Notes: generated from the letters alone by a model not told the origin. Counted from the stretch's first letter, positions 4,060 through 33,208 are shown. The stretch is 33,208 nt of DNA from Candidatus Dormiibacterota bacterium (GCA_036495095.1 DASXNK010000090.1:1-33208); one strand, 5' to 3'. Program-made: numbers and translations.

Positions 4060-4389
4060 TCAGGCCAGGGCGGCGTCCACCTTGGCGGCCAGGATGAAGT
4101 CGTTGCGGGTGAGCCCCTTCACCGCGTGGGTGGTGAGCTCGATCTCCAGCCGGCCCCAGCCCACCCCCATGTCGGGATGGTGCCCCTCGCCCTCGGCGAT
4201 CAGCGCCACCCGGGTGGCGGTGGCGAAGGCGGCGGCGAAGTCACGGAAGCGCAGCCGCCGCCGCAGCCGGACCTCACCGTCGACCTCCCACTCCGAGGAG
4301 AGCTGCCCGTACAGCTCCTGGAGCTCCGGCCCGGTCACCGTCGGGGTCGAGCCGGTGCAGGCCTCGCAGTGCTCCCTGGCGAGCGGCAT
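4060..4389 (-). CDS. phhB: pterin-4a-carbinolamine dehydratase
   Basis: The family dehydrates 4a-hydroxytetrahydrobiopterin and so recycles the pterin cofactor of aromatic amino acid hydroxylases; many bacteria carry it without a hydroxylase, where a role in molybdopterin metabolism has been suggested. The 109-residue protein has the hallmark GHHPDM (His70, His71, Pro72), TTH (86-88) and the GLTRNDF end motif. Its ATG overlaps the upstream aldolase stop codon by one base (TAATG), implying translational coupling. A longer in-frame start at 4452 lies inside the aldolase gene and is not preferred. Confidence 0.9.
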   Translation of the reverse strand: MPLAREHCEACTGSTPTVTGPELQELYGQLSSEWEVDGEVRLRRRLRFRDFAAAFATATRVALIAEGEGHHPDMGVGWGRLEIELTTHAVKGLTRNDFILAAKVDAALA

Positions 4390-5165
4390 TACTCGAAGAG
4401 GTCGGGCTGCTCGCGGGTGATGCGGTCCCAGATCGGCTGGAACGAGAACCATCCCGCGATCCGCGACCCCACCTGCGAGGCGGTCAGCTCGGCGGAGGCC
4501 TCATCGATGAGCACCGGCGACCCCGCCGCCTCGGCGAGCAGCTGGGCCTGGCAGGAGCGCTCCATGGTGAGGAACCACCAGGCCGCCTCGTCCACCGACT
4601 GGCCGACGGTCAGCAGGCCGTGGTTGCGGAGGATCACCGCCTTGCGGCTTCCCAGCGCCGTGCTGATCCGCCGCCCCTCCTCGAGGTCGAGGACCACGCC
4701 GGTGTAGTCGTCGAAGAGGGCATGATCGCCGTAGAAGGCGCAGGCGTCCTGGGTGATGGGGTCGAGCAGCCGGCCCAGCGACGACCACGACTTCCCATAC
4801 AGGGAGTGGGCATGGGCGGCGGCGATCACGTCGGGACGGGCCCTGTGGACCTGGGAGTGGATCGCGAAGGCGGCGGCGTTGACCGCCCGGCCACCCTCGA
4901 CCACCTCGCCCCTGTCGTTGACGAGGAGCAGGTCGGAGACCCTGATCTGGCCGAAGTGCATCCCGAAGGGATTCACCCAGAAGTGATCGGTCAGCTCCGG
5001 ATCGCGAGCCGTGATGTGCCCCGCCACCCCCTCGTCGAAGCCGCACTTCGAGAACATCCGGAAGGCCGCGGCGAGCCGCTGCTTGCGATGCAGGCGCTCC
5101 TCCTCGACCGACGCGAACGACGGGGGCGTGGGGATGGTCAGCTCCCGACGGAGCGCTTGTGCCAT
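4389..5165 (-). CDS. class II aldolase/adducin family protein
   Basis: The 258-residue protein belongs to the zinc-dependent class II aldolase fold (fuculose/ribulose phosphate aldolase, adducin head). Metal-ligand candidates are His118 and His120 (HAHS) and His182 (RNHG). The glycine-rich VAGHITARD segment (48-55) is the usual phosphate-side loop. The N-terminal extension and the FWVNPFGMHF segment resemble the adducin-like decarboxylase/aldolase branch, for which a substrate cannot be named. A GGAGG ribosome-binding site lies 7 bases before the ATG and a TACACT -10-like hexamer at 5204-5199. The gene is coupled to phhB and divergent from the flavoprotein gene. Confidence 0.85.
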   Translation of the reverse strand: MAQALRRELTIPTPPSFASVEEERLHRKQRLAAAFRMFSKCGFDEGVAGHITARDPELTDHFWVNPFGMHFGQIRVSDLLLVNDRGEVVEGGRAVNAAAFAIHSQVHRARPDVIAAAHAHSLYGKSWSSLGRLLDPITQDACAFYGDHALFDDYTGVVLDLEEGRRISTALGSRKAVILRNHGLLTVGQSVDEAAWWFLTMERSCQAQLLAEAAGSPVLIDEASAELTASQVGSRIAGWFSFQPIWDRITREQPDLFE

Positions 5166-5198
5166 GTCTCGACCTCCGGAGGGCGCTGCGACGTCTCC

Positions 5199-5204
5199 AG
5201 TGTA
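5199..5204 (-). promoter_or_regulatory. -10-like element for the aldolase-phhB unit
   Basis: TACACT on the minus strand is followed by a leader of about 25 bases that includes GGAGG (5177-5173) before the ATG. Unlike many genes here, this one would have a conventional leader. Confidence 0.4.
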
Positions 5205-5245
5205 CGGCCGCAGCCGCGAGCGACGGCCTCGGCGGCCGCGCCCCG

Positions 5246-6820
5246 GTGACCCGGCGGCGCTCCTGGTGGGGCTGGGGATGGGAGGACGCCGCCGTCGCCG
5301 GCGACGAGCTCGACCGGCTCGCCGGCATGCTCGCCGCCGTCCTCGGCGACCCCGGGCGGCCGCGGGAGGCCCCCGACCCCGAGGCGCTGGGCCTGCCGCC
5401 GCCGCGGATCGCCGTGCCCGCAGCCCTCGCCGGCCTCGCCGACGGCACCGACCGGGCCCGGGCGGTGCACAGCCACGGCCAGTCGTTCCTCGACGTGGTG
5501 GCGATGCTCGAGGGCGACCTCGACGCCGCCTGCGACTGGGTGCTGCGCCCCGGCGACGAGGGCGAGGTGGCCGCGGTCCTGGAGTGGTGCACCGCCGCCG
5601 GGGTCGCCGCGATCCCGTACGGTGGGGGCACCAGCGTCGTCGGCGGGGTCACCCCCCGGGTCGGCGACGCCTACGCCGGAGCGGTGAGCGTCGACCTCAC
5701 CGGCCTCGACCGGGTGCTCGACGTCGACACCGTGTCGCGGGCGGCACGGGTCCAGGCGGGGGTGCTGGGCCCGGCGCTCGAGGAGGCGCTCCGCCCCCTG
5801 GGCCTGACCATGCGCCACCAGCCCCAGTCGTACGAGTTCGCCTCGGTCGGCGGCTGGCTGGCGACCCGGTCGGCAGGCCACCACTCCACCCTGCACACCC
5901 ACGTCGACGACCGGGTCGAGGGGATGCGGGCGGTGACCCCGCGGGGGACGCTGGAGACGAGGCGGCTGCCCGCATCGGGCGCGGGGCCCAGCCCCGACCG
6001 CCTCCTGCTCGGCTCCGAGGGGGCGCTGGCGGTGATCACCGAGGCGTGGCTGCGGCTGGTCGAGCGCCCCCGCTTCCGCGCCCGGGCCACGGTCCGCTTC
6101 CCCGACATGCCCGGCGGCTCCGCCGCGGCCATGGCGCTGGGCCGGAGCGGGCTGCTCCCCGCCAGCTGCCGGCTGATCGACGCCACCGAGGCGATGATCA
6201 ACCGGGTGGGCGACGGCTCCGCCTGCCTGCTGATGCTCGGCTTCGAGTCCGCCGACCATCCCGTGGACGCCGCCCTCGCCCGCGGCCTGGAGCTCTGCGC
6301 CGACGCGGGCGGGGTCGCGGAGGCGGTGCGGGAGGAGTCCGGCGCCGGGACCGGGGATGCGTGGCGGTCGGCCTTCGTGCGGCTGCCCTACGTGCGCGAC
6401 GCGGTCGCACGGCTGGGGCACATCGTGGAGACCTTCGAGACCGCGGTGACCTGGGACCGCTTCGAGGAGCTCTGGCGGGCGGTGTCGGAGCGCGCCGGCG
6501 CGGCGGTGGCGGAGGTGTGCGGGGCCGGGCTGGTCACCTGCCGGCTGACCCACGTCTATCCGGACGGGTGCGCCCCGTACTTCACCGTGATCGCTCGCAG
6601 CCGGCACGGCGACCAGCGGGCGCAGTGGGCCGCGGTCAAGGCGGCGGCGACCGAGGCCATCCTCGGCGCCGGCGGGACGATCACCCACCACCACGCGGTC
6701 GGCCGCGACCACCGCCCCTGGTACGACCGTCAGGTGCCGGCGCTGTTCGCCGAGGGGCTGGCCACGGTGAAGGCGGCGTGGGACCCGGCCTGGATCCTCA
6801 ACCCGGGAGTGCTGGTGTGA
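5246..6820 (+). CDS. FAD-linked oxidase, alkylglycerone-phosphate synthase-like
   Basis: This is a vanillyl-alcohol-oxidase-type flavoprotein of 524 residues. The N-terminal SWWGWGWED is typical of bacterial alkyldihydroxyacetonephosphate synthase relatives and supports GTG 5246 over an upstream ATG that overlaps the divergent gene. The FAD-binding half contains PYGGGTSVVGG and the SVGGWLATRSAGHHS segment; the C terminus has the THHHAVGRDH motif and ends WILNPG. The HHH segment corresponds to the active-site histidines of AGPS, which makes ether-lipid precursors. An ether-lipid role is an inference; other lactate- or glycolate-oxidase-like substrates are possible. No ribosome-binding site is obvious. 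Confidence 0.85.
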   Translation: MTRRRSWWGWGWEDAAVAGDELDRLAGMLAAVLGDPGRPREAPDPEALGLPPPRIAVPAALAGLADGTDRARAVHSHGQSFLDVVAMLEGDLDAACDWVLRPGDEGEVAAVLEWCTAAGVAAIPYGGGTSVVGGVTPRVGDAYAGAVSVDLTGLDRVLDVDTVSRAARVQAGVLGPALEEALRPLGLTMRHQPQSYEFASVGGWLATRSAGHHSTLHTHVDDRVEGMRAVTPRGTLETRRLPASGAGPSPDRLLLGSEGALAVITEAWLRLVERPRFRARATVRFPDMPGGSAAAMALGRSGLLPASCRLIDATEAMINRVGDGSACLLMLGFESADHPVDAALARGLELCADAGGVAEAVREESGAGTGDAWRSAFVRLPYVRDAVARLGHIVETFETAVTWDRFEELWRAVSERAGAAVAEVCGAGLVTCRLTHVYPDGCAPYFTVIARSRHGDQRAQWAAVKAAATEAILGAGGTITHHHAVGRDHRPWYDRQVPALFAEGLATVKAAWDPAWILNPGVLV

Positions 6821-6869
6821 CCGGATGGGTGGCGGTTCCCGGCCGTTCCGCGGCCGCTCGCGCCGCGCT

Positions 6870-7196
6870 CTACAGCCCGAGGCCGGCCACGGGACTGGCC
6901 GCGAACCTCTCCGTCCCCAGGGCCAGCTGCAGGCCGGTGAACGCGGAGTGGGCATGGAGGTAGTCGAGCTCGTGGGCGAGGTCGCCGACACCGTTGCTGG
7001 CCGGTAGCGGGGCCAGCTGGAGGGTGCTGAGCACTCCGAGGGCACGTCCCTGGGCGTCGAGGTAGGCGCTCCCGGAGTCGCCGGGGATTCCCGGCGAGAG
7101 GGTCATGACCGCGTGGCTCCAGCCGCTGCCGCTGTCTCCGAGGCTGACGCCCCCCCGACGGTCACCGCGCCGCACCCGGGTTGACGCGACGATCAC
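6870..7196 (-). pseudogene. C-terminal fragment of a trypsin-like serine protease
   Basis: The reading frame keeps only the second half of a chymotrypsin-fold protease: PGIPGDSGSAYLD contains the nucleophile-serine motif GDSGS, followed by the strand GRALGVLSTLQLAP. There is no room upstream for the barrel with the catalytic histidine and aspartate, because the frame runs directly into the promoter of the Rrf2 gene at about 7181-7212. No ribosome-binding site or signal peptide is visible. It is most simply a 5'-truncated relic; a short secreted protein is unlikely without the other catalytic residues. Confidence 0.6.
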
Positions 7197-7216
7197 GGAT
7201 ATCTAATATCCGGATC
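7181..7216 (+). promoter_or_regulatory. Rrf2 gene promoter with overlapping palindromic operator
   Basis: A near-consensus promoter is visible: TTGACG (7181-7186), 17-bp spacer, TAATAT (7204-7209), then 7 bases to ATG 7217. A perfect 17-bp palindrome, CGGATAT-CTA-ATATCCG (7196-7212), covers the -10 element. Position and symmetry fit an autorepression operator for the homodimeric regulator encoded immediately downstream. The message would be leaderless. Confidence 0.75.
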
Positions 7217-7705
7217 ATGAAGCTCTCCGATGGGGTGGAGTGGGGGATCCACTGCTGCACCGTCCTGGCCGCGCTGCCGGAGGGGACGGCGCTTCCGGCG
7301 GGCCGCCTCGCCGAGTTCCACGGGGTGCCCGCCGCCTACCTGGCCAAGCACCTCCAGGCGCTGAGCCGGGCGGGCATCGTGACCACCGAGCCGGGGCAGC
7401 GGGGCGGCTACCGGCTGGCGCGGCCGCCGGCCGAGATCAGCCTCTGGGACGTGGTCGCCGCCGTCGACGGCAGCGCTCCCGCATTCCGCTGCACCGAGAT
7501 CCGCCGCCGCGGACCGGCGGCGCTCCCCGACCGTCAGTACACCCGCGCCTGCGGGATCGCCCGCGCGATGCAGCGCGCCGAGCAGGCATGGCGAGCCGAG
7601 CTCCAGGCCACCACCCTCGCCGACATCCTCGCCGACCTGGCGAGCAGCGTCCCGCCCCGGGCGGTCCAGAGGGCCGGGGCATGGTTCATGGAGGTGCTCC
7701 GATGA
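7217..7705 (+). CDS. Rrf2-family transcriptional regulator
   Basis: The 162-residue protein has the Rrf2 winged-helix domain (about 1-85: SDGVEWGIHC at the start, then PAAYLAKHLQALSRAGIV as recognition helix and GQRGGYRLARP as wing). Rrf2 proteins sense redox state, nitric oxide or Fe-S status, usually through three clustered cysteines. Here only Cys96 and Cys117 occur in the sensory region, too far apart for the IscR/NsrR CX5CX7C-type motif, so the ligand is uncertain. A TTG upstream is part of the -35 element, so ATG 7217 is chosen. The stop overlaps the next start (ATGA), indicating a two-gene operon. Confidence 0.88.
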   Translation: MKLSDGVEWGIHCCTVLAALPEGTALPAGRLAEFHGVPAAYLAKHLQALSRAGIVTTEPGQRGGYRLARPPAEISLWDVVAAVDGSAPAFRCTEIRRRGPAALPDRQYTRACGIARAMQRAEQAWRAELQATTLADILADLASSVPPRAVQRAGAWFMEVLR

Positions 7706-19949: not shown

Positions 19950-21008
19950 ATGAGTGAGGCCCGGCGTTCAGCCTTCGGCAGCCCCAGCATCGACGAGGTG
20001 CACATCCTCTGGCTCAGCGCCGGGCTGGGCTGCGACGGCGACTCGATCTCGCTGACCGCGGCCACCCAGCCGAGCCTCGAGGACATCGTCCTCGGCGCCA
20101 TCCCCGGCCTCCCCAGGGTCCACCTCCACCACCCCCTGCTCGCCTTCGAGGTCGGCGACGACTTCCTGCGCGACTGGCACCGGGCCGTGCGCGGCGAGCT
20201 CGACCCCTTCATCCTCGTGCTGGAGGGGTCGGTGCCCAACGAGGCGATCAACGCGGAGGGCTCCTGGGCGGCGTTCGGCACCGACGCCGAGACCGGCCAG
20301 CCGATCCCCACCTGCGACTGGATCGACCGGCTGGCGCCGCGCGCCTGGGCGGTGGTCACCGCCGGCACCTGCGCGGCCTACGGCGGCATCCATGCCATGG
20401 AGGGCAACCCCACCGGGGCGATGGGGCTCACCGACTACCTGGGCGCCGACTGGCGCTCGGCCTCGGGGATGCGGATCGTCAACGTGCCCGGCTGCCCGGT
20501 GAAGCCGGACAACTTCACCGAGACCCTGCTCAACCTGCTGATGCACATGGCCGGGCTCACCGCCGAGATGCCGCTCGACGAGCTCGGCCGGCCCCGGTGG
20601 CTCTTCGACGTCACCGCCCGCGACGGCTGCAACCGGGCCGGCTTCAACGAGCAGACCGACTTCGCCGCCAGCTACAACTCCGGCAAGTGCCTGGCCCGGC
20701 TGGGGTGCTGGGGACCGGTGGTCGACTGCAACGTCGGCAAGCGCGGCTGGATGTCGGGGATCGGCGGCTGCGCCAACGTCGGCGGCATCTGCATCGGCTG
20801 CACCATGCCGGGGTTCCCCGACCACTTCATGCCCTTCATGGACGCCCCGCTGAAGGGCCAGCTCACCGCCGACCTGCTCCGCCCCCACGGGGCGGCGGTC
20901 CGCACCCTGCGGGTGATCACCAACGCCGCGGTCAGGCTGGAGCCGGAGTGGCGCCGCCCCGGGCCGCGCCTGACGACCGGTTACGAGCCCGAACCGGCGC
21001 CGGGGTGA
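19950..21008 (+). CDS. hhyS: [NiFe]-hydrogenase small subunit, group 1h-like, without large subunit
   Basis: The protein resembles the Fe-S small subunit of the oxygen-tolerant, high-affinity 'actinobacterial' hydrogenase that oxidises atmospheric H2. It has 352 residues and no Tat signal, as expected for that group. The proximal cluster site reads GLGCDGDS (Cys28 with aspartates 29 and 31 instead of the usual second cysteine), then Cys141 (TAGTCAAYGGI) and Cys182 (VPGCPV). Further cluster cysteines are 227, 247, 253, 260, 274, 281 and 284. The 27 in-frame residues before ATG 19950 are not typical. The large-subunit gene, normally adjacent, is absent; the stop overlaps the GTG of a GGDEF-EAL gene. 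Confidence 0.87.
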   Translation: MSEARRSAFGSPSIDEVHILWLSAGLGCDGDSISLTAATQPSLEDIVLGAIPGLPRVHLHHPLLAFEVGDDFLRDWHRAVRGELDPFILVLEGSVPNEAINAEGSWAAFGTDAETGQPIPTCDWIDRLAPRAWAVVTAGTCAAYGGIHAMEGNPTGAMGLTDYLGADWRSASGMRIVNVPGCPVKPDNFTETLLNLLMHMAGLTAEMPLDELGRPRWLFDVTARDGCNRAGFNEQTDFAASYNSGKCLARLGCWGPVVDCNVGKRGWMSGIGGCANVGGICIGCTMPGFPDHFMPFMDAPLKGQLTADLLRPHGAAVRTLRVITNAAVRLEPEWRRPGPRLTTGYEPEPAPG

Positions 21009-23836
21009 GCGCCGGCGACCATCGCCTCGCCGCGGTGGCGACCGCGAGCGGGCAGGCGGTGGTCGGGATGGACGGCGCCGGCCGGATCACCGAGTGGGCC
21101 GGCCAGGCTGCGGCGATCTTCGGCTGGGAGCGCGACGAGGTCCTGGGGAGGTGCCTCGCCGACACCATCATCCCGGCCTTCTACCGCGCCGCCCATCGCC
21201 GCGGCCTGGAGCGCCACCGCGCCGGCGGGGCGTCGCCCCTGGTCGGCCGGCCGGTCGAGCTCCGGGCGGTGCGCCGGGACGGCAGCGAGTTCCCGGTGGA
21301 GATCCTGGTGGTCCCCGCAGAGCACGGCGGCGCTCTCGAGTTCACCGCGATGATCCGCGACATCACCGAGCGCAGGTGGCACGAGCGGCTGGCGGCGATG
21401 CAGCTCGCCGCCGGCCAGCTGCTGATGGACGGATCACGCCCCGGCCTGGCCGAGGCGATGCCCGAGGTGCTGCGCACCGTGGGGGAGGCGGTGCGCTGCC
21501 CGGTGGTGCTCACCTGGGTCCCAGACCCCGCCGGTGAGGGCCTCCGCCTGGAGCACGCCTGGCATGCGGGGGGCGCCGGCCTGGGGACCTTCTGCGAGCG
21601 CGCCGGCGGCGTTCCGCTGCCCCAGCCGGAGCTGGTCGACCGGATGCACTGGGGCGGCACGCCCTTCGTGGTGCACGCGGAGATGCCCCACCACAACCCC
21701 CTGCTCACCCTCGCCGGCGAGTTCGGGCTGCGCTGGATGGCGGTCTTCCCCATCGCCCACTCGGGCCCCCTGATGGGGCTGCTGGTGCTCCTCTCCGGCG
21801 AGATGCTCGGGCTCGACGAGGAGCTGCTGGGGGCGATGAGCGGCCTCGGCGGCCAGCTCGGCGCCGCCTTCGCACGCGCCGAGGCGGAGCGGACCCTGAC
21901 CGAGAGCGAGCGGCGGTTCCGGCTGCTCTTCGAGGGCAACCCCAACCCGATGTGGGTCGCCGACGTCGAGACCAGGGCGATCATCGCCGTCAACGACGCC
22001 GCGCTGGCCGCGTACGGGTACACCCGCGAGGAGTTCCTGGGCATGCGCGTCGACGACGTCGAGGTGTCGAGCCACGCCGGCACCGAGCCGGTGCGTCCCG
22101 CCACCAGCTGCCGGCACCGGCTCAAGGACGGGAGGGTCATCGACGTCGAGGTCACCGCCCGGCTCCAGGAGTTCTCGAGCCGGCCGGCGGTCCTCACCCT
22201 GGTCCACGACGTCACCGAGCGGGCGGCGCTGGAGCGCAACCTCTGGCACCAGGCCTTCCACGATCAGCTGACCGGCCTCGCCAACCGGGCGCTGTTCACC
22301 GACCGCCTCGAGCACGCGCTGCGCCGGGCGGCGCGCCACGGCTCCATCTGTGCGGTGCTGCTGCTCGACCTCGACGACTTCAAGCGGGTCAACGACACCC
22401 GCGGCCACCAGGTCGGCGACCGGCTGGTGCAGGCGGTGGCGGCGCGGCTGTGCGAGCACCTCCGCCCCGACGACTCGGTGGCGCGACTCGGCGGCGACGA
22501 GTTCGCGGTGCTCCTCGAGGACCTCGACGGCGCCGCCGGCGCCGAGATCGCCGCCGGGCGGGTGCTCGAGGCGCTGCAGCTGCCCTTCCACGTCGACGGC
22601 CGCGAGCTGCTGGTCGGCGCCAGCGTCGGGGTGGCCCTCAGCGCCGACGCCGCCGGCTCGGACGAGATCCTGCGCAGCGCCGATCTGGCCATGTACGTCG
22701 CCAAGTCGAGGGGGAAGGGCCGCCACCAGCGCTTCGAGCCGAGCATGCTCAGCGCCATGGTGGAGCAGGTCGCCCTGGAGCAGGAGATGCGCGGCGCGCT
22801 GCCCCGCGACGAGTTCGCGGTGCTGTACCAGCCCCAGCTGGACATCGCCACCGGGCGCATCACCGGCGCCGAGGCGCTGGTGCGCTGGAACCACCCGACC
22901 CGGGGATGGCTCGAGCCCCACGCCTTCATCCCCCAGGCCGAGGAGTCGCGGCTGATCGGCGCGCTCGGCGCCTGGGTGCTGCGCACCGCCTGCGGGACGG
23001 CGCGGCGCTGGGTCGAGCTGGGGCTGCCGGCGACACGGGTGGCGGTGAACATCTCGGGCCGCGAGCTGGAGAGCGAGGAGCTCACCCGTGGCATCCGGTG
23101 CGTGCTCGACGAGACCCGCCTCCCCGCCACCCACCTCGAGCTGGAGATCACCGAGACCGCGGCGGTGGGGCAGGAGGGCGAGACCCTGGCCCGCCTCGCC
23201 GAGCTGCGCGAACTCGGGGTGCGCATCGCCATCGACGACTTCGGCACCGGCTACTCGATGCTCAGCCGGCTGCAGGCCTTCCCCGTCGACCGCCTGAAGA
23301 TCGACCGGTCCTTCATCGAGACGATCGACCTCGCCACCGACACCGCGCCGCTGGTGGCGGCGATGATCGGCATGGCCCACGGGTTGGGGCTGACCGTGGT
23401 CGCCGAGGGGGTCGAGCTGACCGAGCAGCTCCAGTACCTGCGCGGCCACGGCTGCGACGAGGCCCAGGGATACCTGGTCGGCAGGCCGATGACCGGGGCC
23501 GCCCTCGAGGAGCTGCTGCGCCGCTCGGCGGCCGGTGCCAGCGCGGTGCGCTGGCAGGAGCCGGAGCTCGAGACCCGCCACCTGCTCAGCGAGCTGGTGC
23601 GGGTCGAGCCCGTGGCCGACCGCCTCGTCCCCGCCCTCCTCGGCGAGCTCGAGCGCCTGACCGGGGTGCGCTGCGACCTGCTCGACCGCACGCCCGGCCC
23701 CGCCGAGGCCCGGGTGCCGCTGCGGCTGCGCGACGGCCGCGTGCTGGGCTGGCTGGGGGGTGCCGCCGGCGCCGACGATCGCACCCTCGAGGTCATCCGG
23801 CTGTTCGGCCGGGTGATCGCCACCCAGCTCGGCTGA
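21005..23836 (+). CDS. PAS-GAF-PAS-GGDEF-EAL cyclic di-GMP cyclase/phosphodiesterase
   Basis: The 943-residue cytoplasmic protein has PAS 1 (about 5-125), a GAF-like domain (about 140-310), PAS 2 (about 315-415), GGDEF (about 420-580), EAL (about 595-840) and about 100 C-terminal residues of unknown type. The cyclase motif GGDEF (496-500) is intact and has a classical RxxD inhibitory site (487-490) five residues before it. The phosphodiesterase side is also intact: EAL (623-625), DDFGTGYS, KIDRSF and VAEGVE. It may therefore make or degrade cyclic di-GMP depending on input. The GTG overlaps the hydrogenase subunit stop (GTGA), indicating translational coupling. Confidence 0.93.
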   Translation: MSAGDHRLAAVATASGQAVVGMDGAGRITEWAGQAAAIFGWERDEVLGRCLADTIIPAFYRAAHRRGLERHRAGGASPLVGRPVELRAVRRDGSEFPVEILVVPAEHGGALEFTAMIRDITERRWHERLAAMQLAAGQLLMDGSRPGLAEAMPEVLRTVGEAVRCPVVLTWVPDPAGEGLRLEHAWHAGGAGLGTFCERAGGVPLPQPELVDRMHWGGTPFVVHAEMPHHNPLLTLAGEFGLRWMAVFPIAHSGPLMGLLVLLSGEMLGLDEELLGAMSGLGGQLGAAFARAEAERTLTESERRFRLLFEGNPNPMWVADVETRAIIAVNDAALAAYGYTREEFLGMRVDDVEVSSHAGTEPVRPATSCRHRLKDGRVIDVEVTARLQEFSSRPAVLTLVHDVTERAALERNLWHQAFHDQLTGLANRALFTDRLEHALRRAARHGSICAVLLLDLDDFKRVNDTRGHQVGDRLVQAVAARLCEHLRPDDSVARLGGDEFAVLLEDLDGAAGAEIAAGRVLEALQLPFHVDGRELLVGASVGVALSADAAGSDEILRSADLAMYVAKSRGKGRHQRFEPSMLSAMVEQVALEQEMRGALPRDEFAVLYQPQLDIATGRITGAEALVRWNHPTRGWLEPHAFIPQAEESRLIGALGAWVLRTACGTARRWVELGLPATRVAVNISGRELESEELTRGIRCVLDETRLPATHLELEITETAAVGQEGETLARLAELRELGVRIAIDDFGTGYSMLSRLQAFPVDRLKIDRSFIETIDLATDTAPLVAAMIGMAHGLGLTVVAEGVELTEQLQYLRGHGCDEAQGYLVGRPMTGAALEELLRRSAAGASAVRWQEPELETRHLLSELVRVEPVADRLVPALLGELERLTGVRCDLLDRTPGPAEARVPLRLRDGRVLGWLGGAAGADDRTLEVIRLFGRVIATQLG

Positions 23837-30307: not shown

Positions 30308-30391
30308 CCTTCGGCAGCCCGGCTATCTCAGAGAGACCCGTGGCTTTGCGTCCCCGCCTCGCGACGGGTTTGCCAGTTTGTCGGGAGCCGA
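30308..30391 (-). promoter_or_regulatory. cyclic di-GMP-I (GEMM-I) riboswitch aptamer
   Basis: On the minus strand the element contains, in order, GGCAAACC (30374-30367), a six-pair stem closed by a GCGA (GNRA) tetraloop, GGGACGCAAAGCC ending near 30342, GGGTCTC-loop-GAGAT, and GATAGCCGGGCTGCCG. These are the conserved blocks of the GEMM-I class, including the tetraloop and the GGACGCAAAGCC receptor side. UCGGC (30391-30387) can also pair with GCCGA (30315-30311) to close the element. TACGCT at 30405-30400 may be the -10 element. It precedes the 102-residue unknown gene; the ligand assignment comes from the family. Confidence 0.9.
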
Positions 30392-32334: not shown

Positions 32335-33208
32335 TCAAGCCGCTGTCTCGACCAGGGTCGGCCAGGCGACGTCTTCGGAGTAGAGGGTCCGGTGAGTCAG
32401 GCATCCGTGGAGGATGCCGACGAAGCGGTTGGCGAGGGCTCGGAGTGCCTGGTGGTGGGTGTTGCCGCGCTGTCGGTGAAGGTCGTAGAAGCGTCGGGCG
32501 CCTGGGGAGCGGGTCAGCGACGAGAACGCCCAGAGGTAGAGCGGGTCCGCGAGCCTTCGGTTGCGGGCCACGCGTGCCAGAACGACCAACCTGGTCCCTG
32601 ATGCCCTGGTGATCGGCGCCATGCCTGCGTAGCAGCGTCTCGCCCTGGCATCCTGGTAGCGGGTTCGGTCGTCGCCGAACTCGCCCAGGACCCGGGCGCC
32701 GAGGACCACACCTAGTCCGGGCAGACTGCGAAGGATCTCGGCGTCCGGGTGTATCTCAAAAGCCTCGGCCAGCTCCGCCTCGAGCGTGGCGATTTCAGCG
32801 TTGAGCTGGGCAAGGATCCGCACGGTCGCCCGCACGGTCTTGGCGTACGCTCGGGCCAGTTCCAGGGGCGGGTGGAGCTGCGGCGAGCGCAGCGCCTCCT
32901 GGATCTCGGCGGCGCGGGTATCGAGGTTGCGCTGACGTCCGGCACGCTCCAGGGTGGCCCGGACCCTGCTGAGCGACAGCGTCTTGCCCTCCGCCGGTGT
33001 CGGAGCGCGTTCGAGCAGGGCCACGGCGTCCCTGCCGGCAAGGTCGGTTCCGAAGGCCTCGAGGGCTGCCGGATAGAACTCGCGCAGCGTGCTGCGGAGT
33101 TGGTTGACCGAGCGCTGCCGGCTCCAGATCAATGTCTGGTGAGCCCGAGCGAGGATCTTGATCACCTCGGCGAGCTCGCTGTCCCCAGCCACCGGCCGGT
33201 GGTTGTGG
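32335..33208 (-). mobile_element. IS110-family transposase, partial (cut by window edge)
   Basis: About 290 residues are visible, with no stop codon up to the window edge; the in-frame GTG at 33192 is internal. The visible part has the central helical region (HQTLIWSRQRSVNQLRS) and the C-terminal transposase_20 domain (LRSLPGLGVVLGARVLGEF, then YAGMAPITRASG). The N-terminal DEDD RuvC-like catalytic domain must lie beyond 33208. IS110 elements usually lack terminal inverted repeats, and none is obvious between 32309 and 32334. Members use a bridge RNA from the element's non-coding end, which is not clearly visible here. Confidence 0.92.

Follow-up and report, generated by a model that had tools for sequence, protein, structure and literature searches.

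In HydDB (PMC5037454), the group 2b [NiFe]-hydrogenases (HoxBC/HupUV, acting with HoxJ) are listed as linked to a kinase, and group 2c bears the description "diguanylate cyclase-linked (putative)"; H2 sensing has been proposed for the latter (PMC5037454; PMC4853749). Within group 1h, the actinobacterial type, an extra gene for the small subunit, hhyS, has been reported about 3.6 kb upstream of the acidobacterial hhySL cluster, with expression of that homolog in one strain (PMC8027828); the main text of that report does not mention kinases, and a kinase beside the second hhyS may have been mentioned earlier elsewhere. Here we describe a 33,208-nucleotide stretch of DNA from a soil bacterium of Candidatus Dormiibacterota (GCA_036495095.1, DASXNK010000090.1:1-33208; hereafter the window), in which a lone paralog of the group 1h small subunit gene, named hhyS* (protein HhyS*), is directly followed by the gene for a PAS-GAF-PAS-GGDEF-EAL cyclic di-GMP (c-di-GMP) enzyme. 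The window is the whole of contig C90 of a 216-contig genome, G000, whose lineage is probably Dormibacteria-like and related to Chloroflexota; C numbers denote contigs, L numbers extracted loci, and G002, G003 and so on the genomes of relatives.

As judged from its sequence, what is new in the window is that a group 1h small subunit stands by itself, its distal-cluster ligand altered, beside a c-di-GMP enzyme, a combination unlike that of any system compared. Group 2b also links a hydrogenase part to a PAS-containing signal protein, but it comprises a complete enzyme of large and small subunits with a kinase, whereas the window holds a group 1h small subunit with a GGDEF-EAL protein and no kinase, and lies outside that group. 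Group 2c shares with it the linkage of hydrogenase genes to c-di-GMP enzymes; the hydrogenase is complete there and represented here by the small subunit only, of group 1h descent, so that the window falls outside group 2c as well, although the enzyme type matches. The acidobacterial second hhyS is, like the window gene, an extra paralog without its own hhyL that adjoins a PAS signalling gene; it differs in belonging to another clade, in keeping the distal His, in having a histidine kinase and a LuxR-type regulator as partners, and in adjoining a canonical pair. The window fits a class by functional analogy, that of a small subunit gene without an adjacent hhyL and with a signalling gene directly downstream. 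The preliminary description of the locus had suggested that it would be a new arrangement; that it is wholly new is not supported in view of group 2c and of the acidobacterial extra hhyS.

The hhyS* gene runs from an ATG to a TGA (21006-21008) in an intact reading frame, and its end overlaps by four bases the GTG from which the signalling gene is read, an overlap already noted in the preliminary description and confirmed here from the sequence. The start codon of the second gene is a prediction, its frame being open far into hhyS*, with alternative GTG/ATG starts further on; the GTG at 21005 is supported by the frame-specific GC content, which changes from the hhyS* frame to the GGDEF-EAL frame close to that position. 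The GTGA motif in itself says little, since it arises wherever a TGA stop follows a codon whose last base is G, and the real evidence for linkage is the tight same-strand adjacency of the two genes. They apparently form an isolated pair, with a divergent open reading frame (ORF) upstream and a convergent one downstream. No large subunit gene was found in the 12.2 kb downstream or anywhere in the window, in agreement with what had first been stated, and the linkage first described, between a small subunit that is truly alone and a c-di-GMP enzyme in tight adjacency, is upheld. It is hardly credible that the junction at 21005 is an assembly error by which hhyS was fused with a foreign gene: the same assembly does collapse hhyL at other places (see below), so gene-family repeats did mislead the assembler, but the window hhyS is only about 66% identical to the other copies in G000 and has just a short exact match with that on C21, so that no collapsed repeat lies here, the reading frame switches cleanly at 21005, and the gene is found inside a 33 kb contig. 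An hhyL gene placed just past a misassembly was also considered and ruled out, the hhyL starts being on C93 and C108 and the window junction in the interior of its contig.

HhyS* is composed of the Oxidored_q6 (PF01058) and NiFe_hyd_SSU_C (PF14720) domains, and its best solved relative is HofK, from a group 1h enzyme (5aa5 chain A; expectation value (E) = 2.3e-157). This match, and a tree in which it is nested with canonical HhyS of the same lineage, place it among the group 1h small subunits. It shares with HofK the subunit family, the proximal Cys/Asp pattern and all other cluster Cys, and differs in its distal ligand, its remodelled C-terminal domain and its gene neighbour; the two features of group 1h HhyS that it lacks are the distal His, replaced by R224, and a directly downstream hhyL, in whose place the GGDEF-EAL gene is found. 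Ligand positions were read from an alignment of about 100 HhyS proteins, in which HhyS* retains C28 and D31, the remaining proximal ligands C141 and C182, and C227, C247, C253, C260, C274, C281 and C284, so that all cluster Cys are present. The distal cluster is normally ligated by three Cys and one His (PMC5297734). Arg occurs at the His site only in the window gene, in the lone hhyS of C21 and in the G002 ortholog of the latter, the His being present in all other group 1h rows of the alignment and in all 40 further readable matches in Chloroflexota loci. A non-His ligand is not without precedent, since Gln occurs at this site in other hydrogenases (PMC4070099).

The same three genes form one clade in the tree (support 100/99), which is placed with canonical HhyS of the same family on longer branches and is separate from the canonical HhyS of G000 itself. 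At 120 near-invariant HhyS positions (56 in the N-domain and 64 in the C-domain), where other HhyS have a median of zero departures, HhyS* departs at one N-domain and 13 C-domain positions (Fisher test, p 0.0014) and the C21 protein at one and 14, respectively (p 0.0007). In both proteins the proximal-cluster domain appears to have been kept and the C-terminal electron-exit side to have been remodelled, and the window gene is a separate derived paralog, not the working HhyS of the genome. The longer branches would also fit a decaying paralog that neighbours the GGDEF-EAL gene by chance, as would the fact that the pair is kept in no relative; we regard such decay as improbable, given the intact ORF, the complete set of cluster Cys, the 106 of 120 near-invariant positions that are unchanged, and the tight adjacency to a rare gene type, with a parallel case in G003 described below.

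The partner gene encodes two PAS domains and a GAF domain ahead of the GGDEF and EAL domains (Table 1). Over GGDEF-EAL it matches the motility regulator 4rnh (E = 8.6e-110), and alignment to this protein locates an I-site RxxD five residues ahead of the GGDEF motif and the retained EAL catalytic motifs EAL (22871-22879), NISG, DDFGTGYS, KID, AEGVE and QGY. In this alignment the GGDEF, I-site and EAL catalytic motifs are all intact.

Table 1. Coordinates of hhyS*, its neighbour and their motifs and domains in the window.
Feature	Position	Strand	Basis
Lone group 1h [NiFe]-hydrogenase small subunit paralog HhyS*, 352 amino acids	19950..21008	+	ORF, Pfam, HofK match, tree
Proximal-cluster motif C28-D-G-D31 (Cys...Asp, group 1h form)	20031..20042	+	Alignment of about 100 HhyS
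Distal-cluster HxxC replaced by R224-D-G-C227	20619..20630	+	Alignment
GTGA overlap, signalling-gene GTG start over hhyS* TGA stop	21005..21008	+	Sequence; frame-specific GC switch
PAS-GAF-PAS-GGDEF-EAL c-di-GMP enzyme, 943 amino acids	21005..23836	+	Pfam; 4rnh match
First PAS domain, residues 10-122	21032..21370	+	Pfam PF00989 and PF13426
GAF domain, residues 149-288	21449..21868	+	Pfam PF01590, E = 2.9e-5
Second PAS domain, about residues 303-410	21911..22234	+	Pfam PF13188 at residues 303-349; domain end estimated
GGDEF domain, motif RLGGDEF (GGDEF at 22490-22504)	22253..22720	+	Pfam PF00990, E = 1.8e-44
EAL domain	22781..23488	+	Pfam PF00563, E = 8.4e-70; alignment to 4rnh

Besides the window, hhyS genes are present in G000 on C93, where a canonical gene is followed by the start of hhyL, and on C21. 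Pieces of hhyL occupy four contig boundaries: C93 and C108 close with the start of the gene, and C54 and C56 open with its end. C93 and C108 have exactly 141 identical nucleotides in common at this boundary, as do C54 and C56, which points to the collapse of two near-identical hhyL copies, since a graph assembler leaves this pattern in such a case; two co-assembled strains may be an alternative account of the copies. The contigs likely pair as C93-C54 and C108-C56. C54 goes on with NifU/Rieske-like, DUF5947 and DUF6084 genes, and on C108 a PadR-type regulator gene precedes hhyL, hhyS being absent. G000 contains, in sum, about two hhyL and three hhyS: besides a canonical pair, there are two hhyS on their own and an hhyL that lacks hhyS. 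The term orphan, first applied to the window gene, is correct in that no hhyL lies beside it, and not in that hhyL does exist elsewhere in the genome (C93/C108, C54/C56). A canonical pair accompanied by the absence of the overlap in all relatives had been named as evidence against the finding; such a pair exists and the overlap was seen in no relative, which tells in part against it but does not overturn it, because the window gene is a separate derived paralog.

The second hhyL copy (L099 16010-16350, at the end of C108, and L004 1-141, at the start of C56) has its own upstream region, and beyond its end on C56 a convergent hemerythrin-like ORF was identified by eye. PadR-type regulator genes, which adjoin this solo hhyL on C108, also adjoin hhyS in the lineage (G000 C93, G002 C27, G003 C297, G008 C71, G024 C88 and G026 C46), and the protein is a candidate hydrogenase regulator.

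The presence of two hhyL copies against three hhyS, the 66% similarity to canonical HhyS and the intact proximal ligands could mean that the metabolic Hhy hydrogenase uses HhyS* as an alternative small subunit from which electrons leave by another route, the c-di-GMP gene being merely co-regulated. We consider this quite unlikely, as HhyS* has lost the distal His ligand and has a remodelled exit face, and as the recurrence of such genes beside PAS or EAL genes in other lineages would be left unexplained.

Such recurrence is found within the family itself. On contig 140 of G003 a lone small subunit gene is, as in the window, directly followed by a c-di-GMP enzyme gene; it differs from the window gene in belonging to another small-subunit branch (47% identity), in keeping the distal His and in its CxxC proximal motif, and its partner is an EAL phosphodiesterase without GGDEF. 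Chance adjacency to an EAL gene in both genomes is unlikely (by our estimate of the order of 1e-4 to 1e-5, random gene order being assumed), because EAL genes are rare, numbering about 17 in G000 and similarly in G003. The possibility that Chloroflexota small subunits of the 47% type are generally signal-linked was rejected, the large subunit lying downstream in most loci extracted, and the EAL-linked gene of G003 looks exceptional for that reason. Short helical ORFs lie between the small and large subunit genes in two such loci that were read. G003 also has a large-subunit gene without an adjacent small subunit, apparently split over two contigs (C269:13158-14459 and C436:1-473; L176, L177), with an odd L1 motif, RVCGYHGGQH, in which the second Cys is replaced by His, and an end at DPCMNCGSQ; it might partner the EAL-linked small subunit of the same genome.

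Lone hhyS genes are common outside the lineage of the window, and there the next gene encodes a PAS protein in all 37 scanned neighbours, for the most part a histidine kinase, with a HATPase domain in 34 of the 37. These kinase-linked loci, which include Acidobacteriota, Verrucomicrobiota, Planctomycetota and Myxococcota, carry hhyS of a different clade that has kept the distal His. The arrangement is well seen in Edaphobacter (L011), where hhyS2 (4282-5310) is followed by a PAS-PAS-HisKA_3 kinase (5341-6930), a LuxR-type response regulator (6934-7623) and then canonical hhyS-hhyL, and in L019 and L021 the kinase gene lies between hhyS and hhyL. Membership of the window gene in the acidobacterial second-hhyS clade was rejected by the tree (forced grouping, approximately unbiased (AU) test, p 0.021), so the association with signalling genes probably has more than one origin. 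The signalling role put forward in the preliminary description gains support from these loci and from the EAL-linked gene of G003. The block of hhyS2, PAS histidine kinase and response regulator (L011 4282-7623, with about 36 similar loci) immediately precedes canonical hhySL in Acidobacteriota. Across phyla, the first PAS domain of these kinases is strongly conserved, and this domain is also present near complete hhySL in Planctomycetota and Myxococcota.

In known hydrogenases the proximal-cluster domain faces the large subunit. A conserved proximal domain with a remodelled exit side fits a subunit that is still able to meet HhyL while its signal is passed to a new partner. We propose, at about even confidence, that HhyS* is a repurposed hydrogenase small subunit which acts as input or adaptor for the co-transcribed PAS-GAF-PAS-GGDEF-EAL enzyme, possibly with HhyL in trans. 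The two proteins would form a complex in which the iron–sulfur (Fe-S) clusters are presented to the PAS-GAF-PAS region, HhyL might join HhyS* in trans from the separate hhyL copies, and H2 or the cellular redox state, in reducing the clusters, would alter c-di-GMP synthesis or breakdown by the GGDEF-EAL part. In this model we infer that the genes are co-transcribed, that the proteins are in contact and that HhyL is used in trans, as well as the nature of the signal (H2 or redox) and the direction in which control runs. The spare hhyL on C108 supports HhyL in trans without proving it. H2 is the presumed signal, to which the redox or oxygen state of the cell is a serious alternative. In another account, possible though unlikely, HhyS* would sense redox state or oxygen by its Fe-S clusters on its own and talk to the PAS domains without any large subunit or H2 chemistry; this agrees with the absence of hhyL directly beside the lone hhyS genes, with the retention of all cluster Cys and with the report of a single group 1h large subunit gene in Acidobacteria (PMC5900883), but the best conserved part of HhyS* is the N-terminal domain, whose proximal cluster faces the large subunit, and G000 does hold a spare hhyL.

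Several observations weigh against HhyS* as a signalling input. The 110 genomes of the class, of which the two from the same genus have a completeness of only about 67%, yielded no ortholog of the window pair. The C21 paralog and its G002 ortholog share the His-to-Arg change and have no adjacent signalling gene. Compared with the canonical clade alone, the contrast between the N- and C-domains is weaker for the window gene (p 0.12), and is still clear for C21 (p 0.005). The PAS domains of the acidobacterial kinases gave no match to those of the window, an actinobacterial lone hhyS (L062) is followed by an unrelated ORF and has no PAS neighbour, and the binding of HhyS* to HhyL or to the PAS domains is itself postulated. 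Among 400 genomes drawn from the phylum, no match was closer than the 66-67% of ordinary HhyS, hhyL following in the best of the matches extracted, and a search of 60 relatives for a PAS-GAF-PAS ortholog gave distant domain matches only. The lone hhyS of C21 (L072 6930-8220) also ends in GTGA; after it comes a small ORF containing two CxxC motifs, and this pair is apparently conserved in G002 (L089), where the match to hhyS is divided between two frames.

Oxidisers of atmospheric H2 abound in soil, and c-di-GMP controls life-style choices such as biofilm formation; to our knowledge, little has been established about H2 sensing and the decisions governing group 1h expression in these organisms. 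The occurrence of spare small subunits beside sensor genes in several phyla suggests a reuse of hydrogenase parts as inputs to signalling. More tentatively, and with somewhat less than even confidence, small subunits may on repeated occasions have parted from their catalytic partner and become interchangeable Fe-S inputs to PAS proteins in several phyla. In the lineage of the window, the module would then have passed from kinases to the control of c-di-GMP, with a distal cluster altered in such a way that the signalling partner, and not respiration, receives the electrons or a conformational signal. If lone small subunits are indeed signal inputs, the conserved Edaphobacter neighbourhood would offer a directly testable sensor in a cultured organism, and the window would represent the same principle applied to c-di-GMP.

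Elsewhere in the window, about 6.5 kb from the GGDEF-EAL gene, a c-di-GMP-I-GGC riboswitch aptamer is located on the minus strand (30309-30383; 70.6 bits against a gathering threshold of 59). It precedes a short minus-strand ORF, a possible local target of c-di-GMP. An IS110-type transposase gene is found at the contig end (32335-33192, minus strand), and an Rfam match to the small RNA Ms_AS-4 (32644-32725, plus strand) lies antisense within it.

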